Source of the DNA: Cylindrotheca closterium
Taxonomy: Eukaryota > Bacillariophyta > Bacillariophyceae > Bacillariales > Bacillariaceae
Assembly (NCBI GenBank): GCA_933822405.4
Contig: CAKOGP040001758.1
Span: 1-64,000 of the forward strand
Direction: 5' to 3'
Length of the DNA: 64,000 nucleotides
Below are positions 3,707 to 63,249 of this stretch, piece after piece. Positions within the stretch are counted from its first letter, which is position 1; each line of letters begins with the position of its first letter. Made by a program: the position numbers and the translations under genes. The notes beneath the pieces are model-generated. The model was not told where the DNA came from. It saw nothing but the letters and a program-made list of their open reading frames with translations, and ran no database searches.

Positions 3707-6242
3707 ATGATGTTGAAAACTACAATTGCTGCTTTCTTAGCTTTTGCTGCTGCTGCTGCTACCGCGGCCATCATCCATGAGGCCGAATGTACCCCATGCG
3801 AAGGAACTACTGGAACTTGTGTGGTCAAGTCCAAGGTTAATTTCTTCGCTGGCCAGACAGGTATGGAATTCTCTCTTGGCTGCTGACATCTGACGGATAA
3901 ATTGTTTTCTTTTTAGGCATGTTCTCTCACTCGTCATCCCATGATTTCTCAATGCTTTTATATACCAAAGGCTATTTCGAGTTTGAAGGTTGCGACGGAG
4001 TCAATCCAACCTTGTTACTCACAGTTGGACGCACCTACAAGTTCGACCAGTCGGATGACACCAATTGGTACCATCTCTTAGGATTCGCCTACGAAGCCGA
4101 TGGTGCTCACGTTCCAGTCGATGAGTTGGAGCCTGGTATCAGCCGCGGTGGAAACACTTGCGACATTGACGCGTCTTGCCCCGCTCCAATGTACTTCCGA
4201 AATGGTGAGTACGCCGGAAGCTACTCCAACATTCCTGAGATCAAGAACGTCACTTCCAACGATGAAGACTTTGGCTTGGATGCTGTGGAACCTCTTTTCT
4301 TCCACCCTTTCAGAGACTGGCAATCCTATGGTGCCATGGAGACCTATCTCAACTATGACTTCCCGTTGGCCCAAGACTTCTTTTATTTCTGCCATGTAAG
4401 TTCTTGTTTGCATTTTGAAGGACTTTGCTGCTCATCACGTAGCGCATCCTCTAATATTCGTTTCAGATCCACAGCGGTATGAGTGGACGGATCAAGCTAA
4501 TTGATGCTGATGGAAACAAGTTAAGTGCAGAAAACACTCCAGAACTTCCATACGAGTACAACAAGGTTGCGGAATTTGATGAAGTGTGCGGTACATACAA
4601 CCTCACTGACTTCCAGCCATCCAAGGACAACAACATGTGCCCACCGATGTTCATCTGCACCTCGGACGGTGCAGAAATGTCTCAGTATGCCAAGTGCGTT
4701 GAAGCCATGAACTGTCACATGATGTCTTCCATGACCACCAATGCTGGTGGAGGAGTCCTGGAACTCTTCAACCACCAGATGATCCCTCATCACGAGAACG
4801 CTATCAATATGGCCAAGTCATTCCTCAAGCTTCATGCCGAGAACGCTGTCTGCAACGAAGTGGAGGAAGGAGCTGAAGTATCGTGGGAGTGTGAGCTGAT
4901 CCCCATCTTCCTGGACATTATCAACGGCCAAAACAGTCAAATTATTGACATGAAGGATGCTTTGGAGCAACTGGGAAGCACTGAATACGCTAACTGCGAA
5001 GTCGATTTTAGTGGGGTTGTGGTATCCCGCAACCGAAGACTGCATGAAGAACCAGCTCCAGGAGCTTCCGAATCTGTCTTCGAGTCCGGCGTTGACTGCC
5101 AACCTTGCGCAGACACCTTTGGTGAATGTGAAGTCAAAGTAAAGGTCGACCTGATGGCTGGAGAGCTCGGATACTTTACTGTGGATGGATGTTCCGGAGT
5201 CAACCCAACTTTGCACTTATCCATAAACCGTACCTACAAGTTTGATCAAAGTGACAAGTCCAACTGGTACCACTTGATTGGATTCTCTTACTTTGCTGAC
5301 GGAGCCCACATTGGTGTTGATGAACTTGAGCCTGGCGTTGCACCAGGTGACTCTTCTTGTGCTGAAACCATGTCATGCCCTGCCCCCATGTACACCATGG
5401 ATGGTGTGTACCAAGGATCCTACAGTAACATTCCAGATATTCTCAATATCAGTACAGGAGAGAATGACTTCGGATTGGATAAAGTCGAGCCTCGCTTTTT
5501 TCATCCTCTCGGTGATTGGGAAGAGTACGGGCCGTTCGTCACATTCTTGAATTTCGACAGCAATTACGACCAAGATATCTTCTACTTCTGTCACGTCCAC
5601 TCTGAAATGACTGGTCGCATCAAGCTTCTCGATGCCAACGGCAACATGTTAAGCAAAGAAAATAAGCCTGAGATCCCATACGAATACAATGTCATTGGAA
5701 ACTATGATCAAACGTGCGGGACTTTTGATTTGGAAAGATTCTGACTACCAAATAATCAATGCCCTGAACACTTTGTTTGCGGTGATGAATCTGATACTAC
5801 CCTTGGAACATTCTCTAACTGCGTCGACGCCATGAATTGTTTCATGTTGGACGGTATGACAACCACGTACGGAGGAGATGGTGGCGGTAGCACAATTTCC
5901 AATGATGCAATCTTATTCCTCCGTCAAATGATTCCTCACCATCAAAATGCTGTCAACATGGCCAAGGCCACCTTGAAACTAGGCGGGATCTCGTGCGGCG
6001 AAGGTTCTGATGTCGGTGTAGATTGCCTCTTAGATCCGATCGTACGTGGCATCATCAACTCGCAGAACAAGCAAATTCAGACAATGAAATCCCTCTTGAC
6101 GGATGTTTTCGAAGTCTCAGAATTCGGCGACTGTGATGTGCCGAAAAATGCAACTGATAGTGGAAGAAGTGGTGCAAACAGTGTCTTCCGTGGAACTTTT
6201 TTTGCTCTTATTGCTGCCGGCGTTGCAATAACCTTCATGTAG
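3707..6242 (+). CDS. Secreted two-unit cupredoxin-DUF305 protein with an in-frame TGA (possible readthrough)
   Basis: Exons 3707-3860, 3917-4395 and 4467-6242; introns of 56 and 71 bp. The product opens with a signal peptide (MMLKTT, then an Ala-rich core) and has the order cupredoxin-like, DUF305, cupredoxin-like, DUF305. Cupredoxin units end in FCHIHSGM (about 210-216) and FCHVHSEM (about 585-592), with a Cys/His/Met spacing typical of type 1 copper sites; an upstream NWYH could give the other histidine. DUF305 units show MIPHHE (316-321) and MIPHHQ (about 699-704). A TGA at 5742-5744 ends the first frame after 636 aa, but the same frame continues for 165 codons and encodes the whole second DUF305 unit plus a C-terminal hydrophobic tail resembling a GPI-attachment signal. 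The base context is TGA-CTA. Alternatives are a nonsense mutation, a sequencing error or, less likely, selenocysteine. A role in copper handling is inferred from motifs only. Confidence 0.8.
5742..5747 (+). promoter_or_regulatory. Candidate stop-codon readthrough site (TGA CTA)
   Basis: This in-frame TGA followed by CTA sits between two homologous halves of one open frame. It lies where the first unit has an ordinary residue (DFQPS), not a cysteine, so selenocysteine is not favoured. UGA-CUA is the best-known leaky stop context in animals and fungi; its use in diatoms is an inference here. Confidence 0.45.
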
Positions 6243-6455
6243 TTTGAATAATATGCGATGTAATGTGGTTGCAAACGAACCTAAGTCAGTGCGAGACTAC
6301 TAAAGTACCACTCATTGCCGCAATAATATTCTTCAATATAAAAAATATATACCTTACTGTATTTAGATCTTCTTACTTGGTTGCTAACCAGATCTGAACA
6401 TACCAAGCTCAACTATGCATAATAAAATGTATCAACGATAACCATTAGAAATGGC

Positions 6456-8223
6456 TTAACTCAATTCCGCGTCGGTGGTAGGTTGCAAATCAGGTTGTTT
6501 TGCTGCAACAGTAGTGCTACCACCAGCAGCATTTCGTACAAAGCACGCGGCCAGAATGCTGACAAAGATAATTCCACCAAGTGCAGCCACAACACTGACA
6601 ATCAACAAGTCTTCGTCATCCATATCTCCAATGGGGCCGCATGGCTCGCCTCCCTCCCAGTAGTCGTTTATACCGTCATTCCACAATCCACCGACATCGG
6701 AACATTTTAATCCCAAATCACCGTACACACTCTCAAGAGCTTTCTTGACTTCCACAAAATTAGTTTTGTTGGCACCCACCTTCATGTTTTCATAGATGAC
6801 TTCGGCAGCATCTTGGTTTGCTGCATAGACTCGTGGGAGAATGGCGGCAGCAAAGACTGCACCTTCGGCAGCAGACTTTTCGCCACCGTCCCCGTTCAGT
6901 TCTCCGACACGGTAGGCATATCGCAAAGTACCTTGAATGAACGGAATGTACATTAATCTTGTAATCTCGCTGACTGTACCTCGGGCTTCATCACACTTTT
7001 TCCCTTGCAATTGGAAGTTGCCCAAAGCAAACAAATCAAAGAGGTCGGAGTTCAATTTGGCATTGCCTTCATTTTCATCACCGTTCTTGCCGCAGGTCTT
7101 GAAATCGTGGCATCTTTTGTCAGCCAGTTGATGCAGTAGTTTGCCATCTTTAGTCACTCCGTCTTGACCTTCAATAGAGCCCGTGTAGAAGCAAACCCCT
7201 TCGTCCCAGGAGTGGACAACGTCGTCGTTGCAATCCTCCACCTCACAGTCACGATCGCAATCATCCAATGCATCTTCAAATTCTCGAATAACGTACATGA
7301 AAATGTTGAAGAATAACATTCCCTTCTTAGCTGCTTCGACCTTGCCATCGTATCCATACACTGAGAAATCTGCGTTGCCCCGGACAAAGCTGGTCTCCTT
7401 GCCGTTCAGAGCCGCAGTGACCCATTGGTGTCCATAGTCATCAATTCCATAATATTCGTAAAAATATTGATGATCCTTGTAGGGACAGCCGTCACAAGTG
7501 AGGCGCATTTTTTCGCCAGCAACCTCGGAAAAACCGGCAATGGTGCGACCATTTTTGTTTTGTGTGGTCGGGTCGTATTCGTAGCTGTAGTTAGTGGCTC
7601 CAACCGAAATAGTGCCAACATTTGCCAAGCATCCATCCGTTTTCTGATTACTAAGAGGAAGGCCGCCTACCATGCATCCCACATGGTTATCTTGATCGTC
7701 ACTGGTTTGGTATGACATGCGGATGACAGTCGATCCTTGAACGTAGGTTCCATAGGCTTTGCCATTCACATCGAGGCCGTTGGATGCCTCACCCTGTATG
7801 AGTGTGCCTTCTTCAACAGTCGAGAAAAGCGGATTATTCAGGGTGAGCTCCGCATACGACTTGGAGGAGCCACCTTGATTGTAGATTTGTTCTGCGGCCT
7901 GAAACGAGCTGTCGGTTTGCTTGGACAATTCGATCTCAATGAGATTTTGATCCAGGTCAATGGCACAATGATCAGTCACCTATACAGAGGGTAAATCGGT
8001 TGTCAGTAAAGCATACGCAGCATCAGCAATGTATTCGATCACAATAGATCCAAAATCATAGAAGAATCCTGCGATTTTCCACAGAACATCACGTAAAATC
8101 CCCTACCTGAGTTCCTGGAGAATATCCTGCAATCTTTTCGAAGGAAAGACGCCGACGAAGGGAATCACTGACACCAGCATTGGCGAGGGAAAGGGAAGCT
8201 AGAGCCAACAAAGAAAACTTCAT
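6456..8223 (-). CDS. ISIP2a/Fea1-like phytotransferrin family protein (copy 1)
   Basis: Exon 1 8223-8107 and exon 2 7979-6456, with a 127-bp intron; 546 aa. Exon 1 encodes a signal peptide (MKFSLLALASLSLANA) and a conserved SLRRRLSFEKIAGY block. Exon 2 starts at VTDHCAID. The body is Cys-rich with blocks shared by all three copies: GGSSKSYAE, NGRTIAGFS, CDGCPY, DDYGHQWVTAALNG, FEDALDDC, WDEGVCFYTGSIE and LADKRCHDFKTC. One transmembrane helix near the C-terminus (around LGGIIFVSILAACFV) precedes a short cytosolic tail, giving a type I surface protein. I assign the family from the WDEG-FYTGS/LADKRC region, recalled from low-iron-inducible Fea1/ISIP2a proteins. If right, it binds ferric iron at the cell surface for endocytic uptake. 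It is tail-to-tail with the cupredoxin gene. Confidence 0.75.
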
Positions 8224-8624: not shown

Positions 8625-10419
8625 TTAGCTGACCTCGGCATCAGTTGTGGCTTCAAGATCTGGCTGCTTTCCTCCAGCACCGCTGCTCTTTCGCGCTCTC
8701 GAGAAGCACAAGAACAGGACGGAGATGAAGAAAAGTCCTCCAAGAGTGGATCCGACGATGATAACGATCAACTTGTCGTCAGTCATTTCGCTCATCAAAC
8801 CATTTTTGCAGGGTCCAGCTCCCTCGTAATACTCGCCAAGAGCAGAGTTCCACAATCCTCCAATATCGGAACACTTGATGCCCAAGTCCTTGTAGACAAA
8901 CTCAAAGGCTTCCTTGACATCAGCGAAATCAGTAGTTGAAACTCCAACCTTTACGTTTTCATAGATGGTATCGGCAGCAGCTTCATCTGCGGCAGCGATT
9001 CGGGGCAAGACGGCGGCGGCAAACACAGCTGCTTCGGCGGCGGACTTCTCACTGTCGTCACCGAGCTTGTCCATCTTGTATGCATATCGCAACGTACCTT
9101 GAATGAAAGGAATGTAGAGCAACTTGGTGATCTCGTTCACGGTACTTCTGGCCTCGCCACAATTTTTGGTTTGCAATTCGTACTTGCCCTTGGCGTACAA
9201 CTTGAAAAGATCATGATTCAATTTGGCCTGACCTTCTAGTTCACCGCCGTCCTTGCTGCATGTCTTGAAATCAGCGCATCGCTTGTCAGCCAGTTGGTGG
9301 AGAAGCTTTCCATCACTGGTGACACCATCTTGTGCTTCAATGGATCCAGTGTAAAAGCAGACGCCCTCGTCCCACGCATGGACGGCGTCGTCGTTGCACG
9401 CATCCAGGTCACATCCACGCTCGCAGTCGTCCAAAGCATCTTCGAATTCTCGAATGACGTACTGAAAAATGTTCAAAAAGACAGTTCCCTTCTTGACGGC
9501 CTCGGTACGACCATTCAGCGAATAGACCGAAAAGTCGGCATTGCCCTTGTCAAAGGTTGTCTTTTCGCCGTTCAATGCGGCAGTCACCCATTGATGCCCA
9601 TAGTCATCGACGCCATAATAGTTGTAGAAGAAGCGATGGTCATCGTACGGGCACCCGTCGCAGTTCAGGCGCATCTTTTGGCCAGCATCCGTGGAGAATC
9701 CGGCAATGGTTCGGCCATTGTTGTTGTCGGTGGTTGGATCGTAAGTGTAGTCGTAATCCTGGCCAGCAATGTTAATGGATCCGGATCCCGCCAAGCAACC
9801 AACCGTGGTTTGAAGATCGGTGGGAAGGCCACCGACCATGCACGTCACATGATTCGCCTGCATATCACTGGTTTGGTATTGCACCTTGAGGCTGGTGGTT
9901 CCTTGTGGGTAATCTTCATACGCCTTGCCGACGGTCGAGGAACCATCCGCATTCGTTCCGACAATGACAGCATCGTTTTGAATGGCCGACGACAAAGGAG
10001 TGCTCAAGGTGATCTGAGCATACGACTTGGAGCTTCCACCTTGGTTGTAAATATTGCCGGCGGTTGCAAAGCTAGAATCCGTTTGTTTGGCCAATTCGGT
10101 TTCGATGGCAGCTTGGTCCAAATCAATGGCGCAGTGATCCGTCACCTGCAGTGAGGAAAGAAAGAAAGAAAGAAGAGAATTGCCAAACAATGTCAGATGA
10201 GAGATGAGGATTGACTGTGGAATCGACACTACATGTGCCACTTTTGAACCATCATCATCAGAATCAACGAATGGAACAATCCGATGCAATACAGTAGCGT
10301 ACCTGAGTTCCTGGAGCATATCCAGCAATCTTTTCAAAGGAAAGACGACGGCGAAGAGAGTCGGTCAGGCTAGCGCTCGTCATGGAAAGGGAAGAGACAG
10401 CCAATAGAGAAAGCTTCAT
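8625..10419 (-). CDS. ISIP2a/Fea1-like phytotransferrin family protein (copy 2)
   Basis: Exon 1 10419-10303 (39 codons) and exon 2 10145-8625, with a 157-bp intron; 545 aa. It has the same architecture as copy 1: signal peptide MKLSLLAVSSLSMTSA, the SLRRRLSFEKIAGY block, a Cys-rich Fea1-like ectodomain with DDYGHQWVTAALNG, WDEGVCFYTGSIE and LADKRC, and a C-terminal helix (around LGGLFFISVLFLCF) with a tail ending in DAEVS. The exon 1 length, splice phase and junction sequence (GTQ|VTDHCAID) are identical to the other two copies, so they come from one ancestral gene. A continuous frame runs through the 3' part of the intron to 10337 but lacks a signal peptide, so the spliced model is preferred. 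Confidence 0.75.
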
Positions 10420-23019: not shown

Positions 23020-23456
23020 AAAAGTAGGGGACTGCTGCTTTCGCGATGAATTTCATCACACTGTAAAATTGGGGACTTCATTGTATGATAAGTATTATGG
23101 ATCTGTGCACTAAATAGAGCAACGGTAAAGATAACGAAACTTGATACTGCTGTATTTAGATTGGGTATCTATTCTCCACGTTGTACTACGGTACTGGTCA
23201 TGGATGTTTTGGCAATAACAATATTAATCTACCAGTGACCATAATAGCACCATATATAATAGTAACTATTGCGTCGTCTGGCCGCTGTAAGATACAAGGT
23301 GTCAAAACGAATTTTCGCAATTCGCATGCTGTTGTAACACCATACCGTTATATTCGCATCTACAGTACTTCAATGCAAATAAAATATATTACCGGTAATA
23401 CGACCTTCTATGTTTATATTGGAACGCAGATGGGTTGAAAATCCTAATTTGAAATC
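23020..23456. other. Intergenic between Kir copies 2 and 3
   Basis: About 440 bp, AT-rich, containing an ATTACCGGTAAT palindrome near 23390. No gene seen. Confidence 0.4.
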
Positions 23457-24692
23457 ATGTCGAGAAGAACTTCAATGATCGATGCTATGAAGCTTCGATC
23501 GACCCGCAATATGGAGTCCTTTCTGCATTCTGCCTCAGAATTATCGAACCATGACAATGACATTGAAAAACCGGCGGAAAAGAAGCGATGCGTGGATATT
23601 GATGGCCACAAGGTGATCTTCACTTTGGTGAAGAACGAGACACAACGACCAAAGGCTAGCAGGAAGGAGCGACAGGAGTTTGAAATAACCAACAAGAATG
23701 TCAAGTTGCCAGGCAATTGTCACGAACGAAAGATCAGGAGGTTCTTATTGACGTTTGACATCCCAGCCTTGACTGTCATGTACCTTGTTTCATTCGTGGT
23801 CATGAATGCTTGTTTCGCTGGCTTATGGTCAATTGAGAGTGATGGGTGCTGCGGGGATGGGAGTATGACATTTTGGCAACACTTTGACTTTGCCGTGCAG
23901 ACATCCTCAACCATTGGATATGGCGGGTATTGGCCGCGAGGCTATTGGAACAACACTTTGGTTGTCCTTCTCACTGCATTTTCCATCCTTTTTTCCACTG
24001 TTTATGCTGGACTGGTTTTCTTCAAGTTCATCACGCCGGAAGGTAAGTCTTTTAAAGAAGGTGAATTCAACACTTTTGCTCGTTGAGAAATTTTGTCTAA
24101 CAATAAGTCTAAATATACCGGTCCTGTAGCTAACATCGAATTCAGCGAGGTCATGACCTTGTCCAATGTGATGGGCCAATCTTGCATCGAGATTCGTGTT
24201 GGAAATGTAGATGCCAGTAGCAACAAGCTAATCAACGCCGAGGCAAGCTTAACTGTCGTATCGCATCAAGAATATCAAAGCGAAGACGAAGGTGACAAAG
24301 TTCTAAAGATATCGCAACCTGAAGATTTGAAGCTAGCAGTTACTTCACAACACTTGTTTTTCGGTGTTTGGACTTTGCGACACTTCATTGATGAAACTAG
24401 CCCATTGTATGGTTTCCGATTTGACGAGTTTCCTGGAAGCACTATTATTGGATTTCAACTGAACATCAAGGCGATCCAATCATTGACAAAGGGGGAAGTA
24501 TATGCACAAACTAGGTACCAGGTGGAAGACCTCTTGGTTGGACATGCCTTTGAAGACCAAGCAATTTGGGAGACTGCCATTCAAACTGCAGTTTTCGATT
24601 ATGACAAGATGAGTAGTACACGTCCATCTTTCGTTTGGTACCCACAAAAGAAGGATATTTTGGACTGCGGCGATGCAGTTGTCAGCGCCTAA
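23457..24692 (+). CDS. Inward-rectifier-type (Kir) potassium channel, copy 3
   Basis: Exons 23457-24042 and 24130-24692, with an 87-bp intron; 382 aa. Same layout as copies 1 and 2: helix 1 at about 102-125, a pore with TIGYG at 152-156, helix 2 ending LVFFKFITPE, then a cytoplasmic domain with EIRVGNVDA, LRHFIDETSPLYGF and VGHAFEDQ. The intron sits at the same place as in copy 1 (after the FFKFITP segment) but in a different phase by eye. The last codons and the following spacer were copied together with the downstream GluR gene (see 28855-29232). Confidence 0.9.
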
Positions 24693-61461: not shown

Positions 61462-63249
61462 ATGAAGATCTACTTTTCTATTGTTCTATCTGCCGCCATC
61501 TTTGCCAATGTAGCAAATGCCCAATCCTTATTTGATTATTCTGCTCCTGCCACTGGGTCTGCCAAGTGGTAAGTTTGGAAGTTCGTGCCTCATCGATTGC
61601 GTTGATTTATTACTAGTGTCCAGCACCTAATACCTTTGTTTACACAACTAATCTGCAGTGCCTTGATCAACGTAATCATGGACGAATCCGGTTCCATGGG
61701 TGGCGATCAAACATTTCTCAAGAACGTGGCCCTCCCCAAAATGGCCACAGAACTTCACAGTTCCAACCACAACTACTCCGATGTCTTTGTCTGCAGTAGT
61801 GGATTTGGCTATTCCCGAACCAACAACGCCCAGGCCTACCGTCACCTTGGTTGTACCACCTATAACTCAGCTGGTGTCATTGCTAACTCTACCGCACTTG
61901 CGTGGTATGCCAACGGGGCGATCGAAGATGGTTGGTACGCCATGAAGCACGGCATGCAAGATGTTCCTTCTTCTATTAATGGAACAGACCTGCTTTCACA
62001 CTGTGCCAGGGTTGACAAGAACCTCATTCTGGTCACCGATGAAGACCGCGACGATGCTTACAGCAACGTTGACGCAACGAACATTGCCAACTTGATTGAT
62101 ACCAACGGATACATCTTGAATGTGATCGCCAACTATGGTATCAATAACAACATCAACGACTTTGGCATGAATATTGGGGGCGGTGGTTCCAACAGTACCA
62201 TTTTCCGCTTTGATTCTTCCGCTCCTGACAACCACATGACATATCAAGACTTTCGCCCATATGAAACCTATGTCACTTCTTTCGGAGGAACTCATCCCCA
62301 CTACACCGAGCTCATTGTCGACAAGCCGGGAGCTGCCTGGAACATTAACAGTCTTCGTTCCGGTGGTCTGCGGGCTCAAACCTTTGCTGATATTTTTGTG
62401 GACATTAAAGTCAAAGAGATCTCCAATGGAACTGGCGGGCCTTCAGGTGGCGGAGGCACCGTCCGTGTTGGTGGACCCGAAGCCGGTGGAGATCCCCACA
62501 TCACTACCTGGAACCATAAGGAACACTACGAGTACCATGGACAGTGCGACCTTGTCATGGTCAAGGATCCCACCTTTGCCGATGGTCTTGGACTTTATGT
62601 GCACATTCGCACCAAGATTGTCCGATACTGGTCATACATTCAAAGTGTGGCCATTCGCATTGATGATGACGTTCTTGAGATTGAAGGATCTGCGGATGCC
62701 CATGATGATCAGGCTCACTATTGGAAGAACTTTGAATACCAAGGCGACCTCGACACTTTTGCTGGTTTCCCAGTCACCCAAAAGCTTCCTTCCGTCTACA
62801 AGCGTACTTACACCATTGACTTGAGTTCCAAGTTTCCTGGACAAGAAATTACCATTCAATTGTACAAGGAGTTCGTCCGTGTCAAGCTCAATGGCAACGA
62901 ACAAGTCTTTGGGAACTCGGTTGGTCTACTTGGAGATTACAAGACTGGAAAGACCCTTGCTCGTGATGGCGTCACAGTCTTGGATGACTTTACTGACTTG
63001 GGTGACGAGTGGCAAGTCTTGCCCAGTGAACCAACACTCTTTCACGAGATTGCCCATCCTCAATTCCCCGAGCTCTGTTTGAAGCCCGAAGATCCTCGTG
63101 GAGAGCGCAAGCGTCGTTTGGAAGAGTCCAGCATCTCTGAGGAAGATGCCGAGAAGGCATGTGTCTCATTGAAGGATCCATTGGCGATCAAGGATTGTGT
63201 CTATGACGTGTTGGCAACCCAAGATGTCGACATGGTTGGTGCCTTTTAG
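61462..63249 (+). CDS. Secreted von Willebrand type A / type D domain protein
   Basis: Exons 61462-61568 and 61659-63249, with a 90-bp intron that rebuilds a Cys codon; 565 aa. Signal peptide MKIYFSIVLSAAIFANVANA. The vWA domain starts at INVIMDESGSMGG, where DESGS is the metal-coordinating MIDAS motif. A Gly-rich linker precedes a vWD domain with GGDPHITTWNHKEHYEYHGQCDLVMVKD and GNSVGLLGDYKTGK. The C-terminal region is acidic with two Cys in a short repeat-like end (ACVSLKDPLAIKDCVYDVL). vWD modules occur in mucins and in adhesive secretions; a role in adhesive or extracellular matrix assembly in a diatom is inferred. There is no membrane anchor. Confidence 0.88.

Follow-up and report, generated by a model that had tools for sequence, protein, structure and literature searches.

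An in-frame TGA-CTA splits a conserved cupredoxin-like and DUF305 gene of the diatom Cylindrotheca closterium: a possible recent nonsense allele

A conserved diatom gene carries one in-frame stop

In the diatom Cylindrotheca closterium, an in-frame TGACTA at positions 5742-5747 (+) splits a conserved gene, with the TGA itself at 5742-5744. The stop is absent from the relatives we compared, and the frame downstream of it is conserved. We give a probability of about one half to the reading that this TGA is a recent nonsense allele confined to this lineage, whether fixed or still segregating, rather than a programmed device. Positions refer to the window, i.e. the whole stretch of 64,000 nucleotides that was analysed, and every part of the gene lies on its + strand.

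The first exon (3707-3860) contains the start codon and encodes a hydrophobic, signal-peptide-like N-terminus (hydropathy of 1.56 over residues 3-21). It is followed by a 110-nt intron (GTATGG...AAAG, 3861-3970), a second exon with most of the first cupredoxin-like domain (3971-4395), a 71-nt intron (GTAAGT...TTTCAG, 4396-4466), and a third exon (4467-5744) that includes the TGA, which is codon 619 and ends the short product. The spliced translation, which begins in exon 1, is identical over all 618 residues to the NCBI protein P0001, which reads FAGQTGYFEF across intron 1 and stops at the same residue; P0001 is the annotated protein of this same C. closterium assembly and hence is not independent evidence. 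The TGA is preceded by 429 open codons, four of them from intron 2 and the rest from exon 3, and beyond it the same frame runs for 165 codons (5745-6239) until a TAG at 6240-6242, giving a long form of 784 residues. A previous sequence-only reading of this DNA had assigned 636 aa to the short form and ~802 aa to the long one. Both lengths are wrong, and the former is reproduced by counting the last 54 nt of intron 1 as coding (18 residues), i.e. by starting exon 2 at 3917 instead of 3971.

DUF305 (PF03713) is present on each side of the TGA, both times above the curated Pfam cut-off of 27 bits. The best stretch of unit 1 is located at 4659-4847 (31.6 bits) and has the motif MIPHHENAINMAK at 4779-4817 (residue 298), and the best stretch of unit 2 is located at 5910-6098 (36.0 bits) and has the motif MIPHHQNAVNMAK at 5928-5966 (residue 681). 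This agrees with the sequence-only reading, which had placed a second DUF305 within 165 in-frame codons past the TGA-CTA, as well as cysteines a few codons after the stop; the first Cys is six codons downstream. The cupredoxin-like domain of unit 2 (5082-5630) is rusticyanin-like in its model and includes NWYHL and FYFCHVHSEM. The copper ligands of rusticyanin-like cupredoxins are His, Cys, His, and Met, and the blue-copper ligand pattern (NWYHL plus FYFCHxHxxM) is present in both units, where metal binding is predicted. The product of this gene is probably secreted and copper-binding.

The short form is laid out as a cupredoxin-like domain, DUF305, a second cupredoxin-like domain, and then a stub of ~37 residues. 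The hydrophobic C-terminal tail that had been described for the long form is confined to it: the last 20 residues (6180-6239) have a mean hydropathy of 1.70, compared with 1.47-1.71 in the six relatives checked, all of which end in similar tails, and the tail is GPI-like by eye.

Two DUF305 domains also occur in CopM of Synechocystis, a periplasmic and partly extracellular copper-binding protein according to the available sections of PMC4335983 (PDB 5ffa and 5ffc). The diatom protein differs from CopM in that it interleaves cupredoxin-like domains, has a C-terminal tail, and misses the NCBIfam cut-off for the CopM metallochaperone (NF049983; 25.0 and 38.2 bits, under the curated 90 bits). In the model, CopM aligns over a stretch reaching from one DUF305 to the other, and truncation at the TGA would seem to take away half of a CopM-like bundle, which is a better fit to damage than to design. 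A single-sequence fold prediction was discarded (pLDDT 34.7). Among diatoms, DUF305 is likewise found in ISIP3 and in other proteins, with ISIP3 being discussed for iron in the available sections of PMC7966952; we liken our protein to ISIP3 by their shared DUF305.

The stop is absent from relatives

In an alignment of 37 relatives, drawn from the best 120 hits of a first search, the residue at the site is Gln (29), Lys (7), or Thr (1), and none has a stop. Orthologues thus do not keep the TGA, and stop conservation, which is the key prediction of the programmed readthrough put forward in the sequence-only reading, fails among the relatives in this alignment. As far as these relatives go, the sense residue found in all of them makes the TGA specific to the C. 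closterium lineage, in a comparison that covers distant orthologues (at most 73.6% identity) and not strains of the species.

In total, 328 proteins were fetched, i.e. the best 120 each of 228, 217, and 570 hits, and among these P0001 alone ends at the site; the closest relative besides P0001 within these best hits is 73.6% identical. For the most part, the relatives are proteins from metagenomes. Sequences from 318 of the 328 align across the site (including P0001 itself and some in the register of the other unit), with Gln in 235, Lys in 25, Thr in 17, Arg in 11, Glu in 10, Ser in 7, other residues in 13, and Cys in none. Alignments with at least 60% identity (n = 14) have either Gln (7) or Lys (7).

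Turning a Gln or a Lys codon into TGA takes two base changes under the genetic code, so the stop has no single-step origin from the state of its near relatives. It must have passed through an Arg codon or another stop codon, and this counts against a recent nonsense allele. Judging from the aligned proteins, the route via Arg, the residue found in 11 of the 318 alignments, is open.

We also observe that four relatives of the extension, P0128 (153 aa, longest contig 1230 bases), P0131, P0173 (134 aa, longest contig 1507 bases), and P0174, begin at an internal Met. These may come from contigs that lack their 5' end, or from other genes split at about this point.

The extension is constrained

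Across residues 620-760, the well-aligned portion of the extension, 0 of 35 near-invariant columns are broken, and the same is true of other parts of the protein (0/65, 0/31, 0/60, and 0/5); alone this is a weak test, with 9 of 12 inspected relatives also breaking none in the extension. On a fixed tree, the window branch represents 0.0161 of the tree length of the extension, compared with 0.0134, 0.0179, and 0.0229 for three upstream parts. Based on distances, the ratio of the window branch to its sister branches is 0.77 for the extension (0.52-1.10) and 0.90 for the upstream sequence (0.73-1.13; 60 bootstraps). Three incomplete relatives, P0014, P0032, and P0036, were excluded from this calculation; P0036 is the tree sister of the window (support 91). 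By this protein-level measure the extension is as constrained as the sequence ahead of the TGA, and the purifying constraint that had been expected downstream is indeed kept.

Given that the constraint is undiminished, a dead extension would have to be very young. Assuming that neutral change is 5 to 10 times as fast as constrained change, we estimate that any loss of function in the extension could date back no further than about 2 to 6% of the lineage branch, or 13% with the loosest bounds. Downstream constraint that equals upstream constraint is as expected for a young break; on these protein alignments, it would fit readthrough and a very recent break equally.

The same constraint bears on whether the short form could be the selected product, with the second DUF305 and the anchor having been lost adaptively. 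Relatives with a single unit and a length of about 450 aa are common, which is consistent with such a loss. They also indicate that a protein can work with just one DUF305, and this counts against a nonsense allele. However, a selected truncation of any age would relax the extension, and the extension is unrelaxed, so we consider an adaptive loss very improbable.

The TGA-CTA context and readthrough

Functional UGA-CUA readthrough is an explanation we regard as tentative. According to it, most ribosomes would make the soluble 618-aa form, while a minority would produce the 784-residue protein with the second DUF305 and a membrane-anchoring tail. The claim of a leaky context in the sequence-only reading agrees with the literature, as the TGACTA at 5742-5747 matches the UGA CU(A) motif that drives readthrough in fungi and human cells (PMC4207609, available sections). 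Readthrough would also account for a constrained extension that has kept its Cys and its MIPHH motif, for a tail like that of the relatives checked, and for the lack of a usable intron over the TGA. By contrast, the sense residue in 37 of 37 relatives argues against it, as does a short form that seems to be without half of the modelled CopM-like bundle. Moreover, the +4 base at this site is C, whereas the available sections of PMC4207609 note G as important and favourable to readthrough at this position.

The leaky-looking context also weighs less because the CTA falls on a conserved Leu codon, this Leu being conserved in near relatives (FQLP, FKLP) and not family-wide. Specifically, of the 3894 Leu codons counted in long ORFs, 371 are CTA (9.5%) and 2310 are CTN, so that Leu codon usage alone would place a UGA here in the UGA CU context about 6 times in 10 and in the UGA CUA context about once in 10. 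The TGACTA hexamer shows no enrichment in the window (19 seen vs 25.7 expected), and the fold of the RNA past the stop is not more stable than that of shuffled sequences (z of -0.47 over 100 nt and -0.29 over 60 nt). As such, the contiguous, constrained frame and the context of the programmed readthrough proposed earlier hold up, whereas the stop is unconserved, no RNA fold signal is found, and the CTA is the codon of a conserved Leu; programmed readthrough is possible.

Published UGA CUA readthrough genes (PMC4207609, available sections) resemble our case in having the same stop and next three bases, a contiguous conserved frame, and a proposed switch of location. They differ in that candidates were picked for a conserved context and their readthrough was measured, whereas the C. 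closterium stop is found in one lineage and is known from sequence alone. In addition, the published extensions described in these sections are a targeting signal, while that of C. closterium is a 165-codon domain plus a tail, with C at +4. Among titles and abstract openings retrieved for diatoms or stramenopiles, we found no paper on stop codon readthrough in diatoms. We consider it slightly more doubtful than readthrough in general that this one diatom gene gives rise, via UGA-CUA readthrough, to both a soluble and a membrane-anchored copper protein, with the anchored form holding the second half of the CopM-like bundle and its amount being set by termination efficiency.

Introns, recoding, and additional copies

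The TGA could be removed or recoded through a hidden intron, RNA editing, or selenocysteine, which we regard as highly unlikely. We found no usable intron that would remove the TGA, an outcome the sequence-only reading had raised: the candidates of 40-400 nt that span the TGA and keep the frame (n = 47) all extend at least to 5874 and have poor donors, with the best matching 4 of 6 bases. Diatoms have selenoproteins, which speaks for recoding. However, Cys is found in 0 of the 318 site alignments, and no SECIS is detected in 5600-8000 among Rfam matches up to an E of 10. A reassigned TGA is also rejected: in 99 ORFs of at least 300 codons, a mechanical stop-to-stop sample that includes antisense ORFs unsorted, 34 end in TGA, 36 in TAA, and 29 in TAG, so TGA is an ordinary stop in this genome.

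A DNA search of the assembly recovered no second copy of the gene with a sense codon, and protein and family searches recovered no other DUF305 gene. The first of these results matters for the explanation that the TGA is an assembly base error, or one allele of a heterozygous site in a collapsed consensus, because with no second copy found a collapsed haplotype could not be seen. It is also in line with this explanation that P0001 derives from the same single assembly, and that near-identical copies exist for some other genes. However, one wrong base cannot make TGA from a Gln or a Lys codon, and the true codon would have to specify a residue that is absent from all 14 alignments with at least 60% identity. 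We therefore view an error or a collapsed allele as rather improbable; it differs from a nonsense allele only in whether the DNA of the strain truly has TGA on all copies.

Two neighbouring genes of the window, at 6456-7979 (-) and 8625-10337 (-), have translations that are clearly similar by eye, with a C-terminal hydrophobic segment, and by eye they represent a tandem duplication within one family. Separately, the same fragments of ORFs occur three times, 3,879 bases apart, at about 62445-62928 of the window and at about 2324-2807 and 6203-6686 of locus L009, which begins at contig base 64001. This spacing points to a tandem repeat that spans the end of the window.

Lone in-frame stops elsewhere in the genome

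The window holds six same-frame ORF pairs with at least 300 bases on each side of a single stop. Among these, only the pair at 5742 was found to lie within a single conserved gene on both sides of the stop and to have no intron, with Pfam scans covering the upstream halves of two of the four pairs other than those at 5742 and 24084. The pair at 24084 belongs to an inward-rectifier-type K+ channel gene (23448-24692, +) with IRK_C after the stop (42.9 bits) and weak, sub-cut-off Ion_trans_2 and IRK before it. We rejected it as a split gene, as its in-frame TGA is within an 87-nt GTAAGT...TAG intron (24043-24129), which is divisible by three in length.

Stops are carried by 16 of 131 kinase matches, 12 of them with a single stop and 4 with several. 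Nine of the 12 single-stop rows have at least one mechanical intron candidate, two further rows without such a candidate have their stop no later than the third residue of the match, and one, in contig C552, has a mid-domain stop and no intron candidate. In other families, stop-bearing rows are found for 1 of 19 ABC, 0 of 29 kinesin, and 5 of 115 mitochondrial carrier matches. Five of the six ABC and carrier rows were inspected, the sixth being C1:804528, and these correspond to the gene's own end in one case and to introns by eye in four. Overall, 1 of 294 domain rows has a lone mid-domain stop without an intron candidate, with 5 multi-stop rows (four of them kinase) left out, which puts the frequency of single TGAs within genes that are otherwise intact at roughly one per few hundred domain matches.

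The C552 kinase gene (151282-152139, -; locus L011) has a lone mid-domain TGA (TGAGGT) and two stop-free copies with 98% identity on C478. Compared with these intact copies, its TGA indicates that fresh TGA variants occur in this genome.

We also scanned 284 kb by codon usage for coding frames split by a stop. This gave 26 rows and was unusable, as its score discriminates poorly between coding and non-coding sequence, with 29% of the stop-bearing scan windows passing. In rows L033, L038, L046, and L048, Pfam scans on both sides of the stop matched only the upstream half of L048, below cut-offs.

Discussion

If the TGA is a nonsense allele, most ribosomes would end at the UGA and release the 618-aa protein, which would be without its second DUF305, i.e. 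half of the CopM-like bundle, and without its tail. A small amount of full-length protein may still be made owing to the UGA CUA context, and this would soften the loss. A nonsense allele is supported by a stop that is unique among 37 relatives, by the other lone TGA in the C552 kinase, and by the absence of an unusual RNA fold after the stop. Against it stand the youth that it requires of a dead extension and the presence of the best-known leaky context.

A nonsense allele would serve as a warning that a stop, a leaky-looking context, and a conserved downstream frame are not enough to call readthrough, particularly where the CTA is a likely codon of a conserved Leu. Should readthrough be true, it would represent a domain-length, location-switching case in an alga of the stramenopiles, a group distant from the animals and fungi in which the UGA-CUA context was characterized, and it would concern a gene family that is tied to copper and perhaps to iron.
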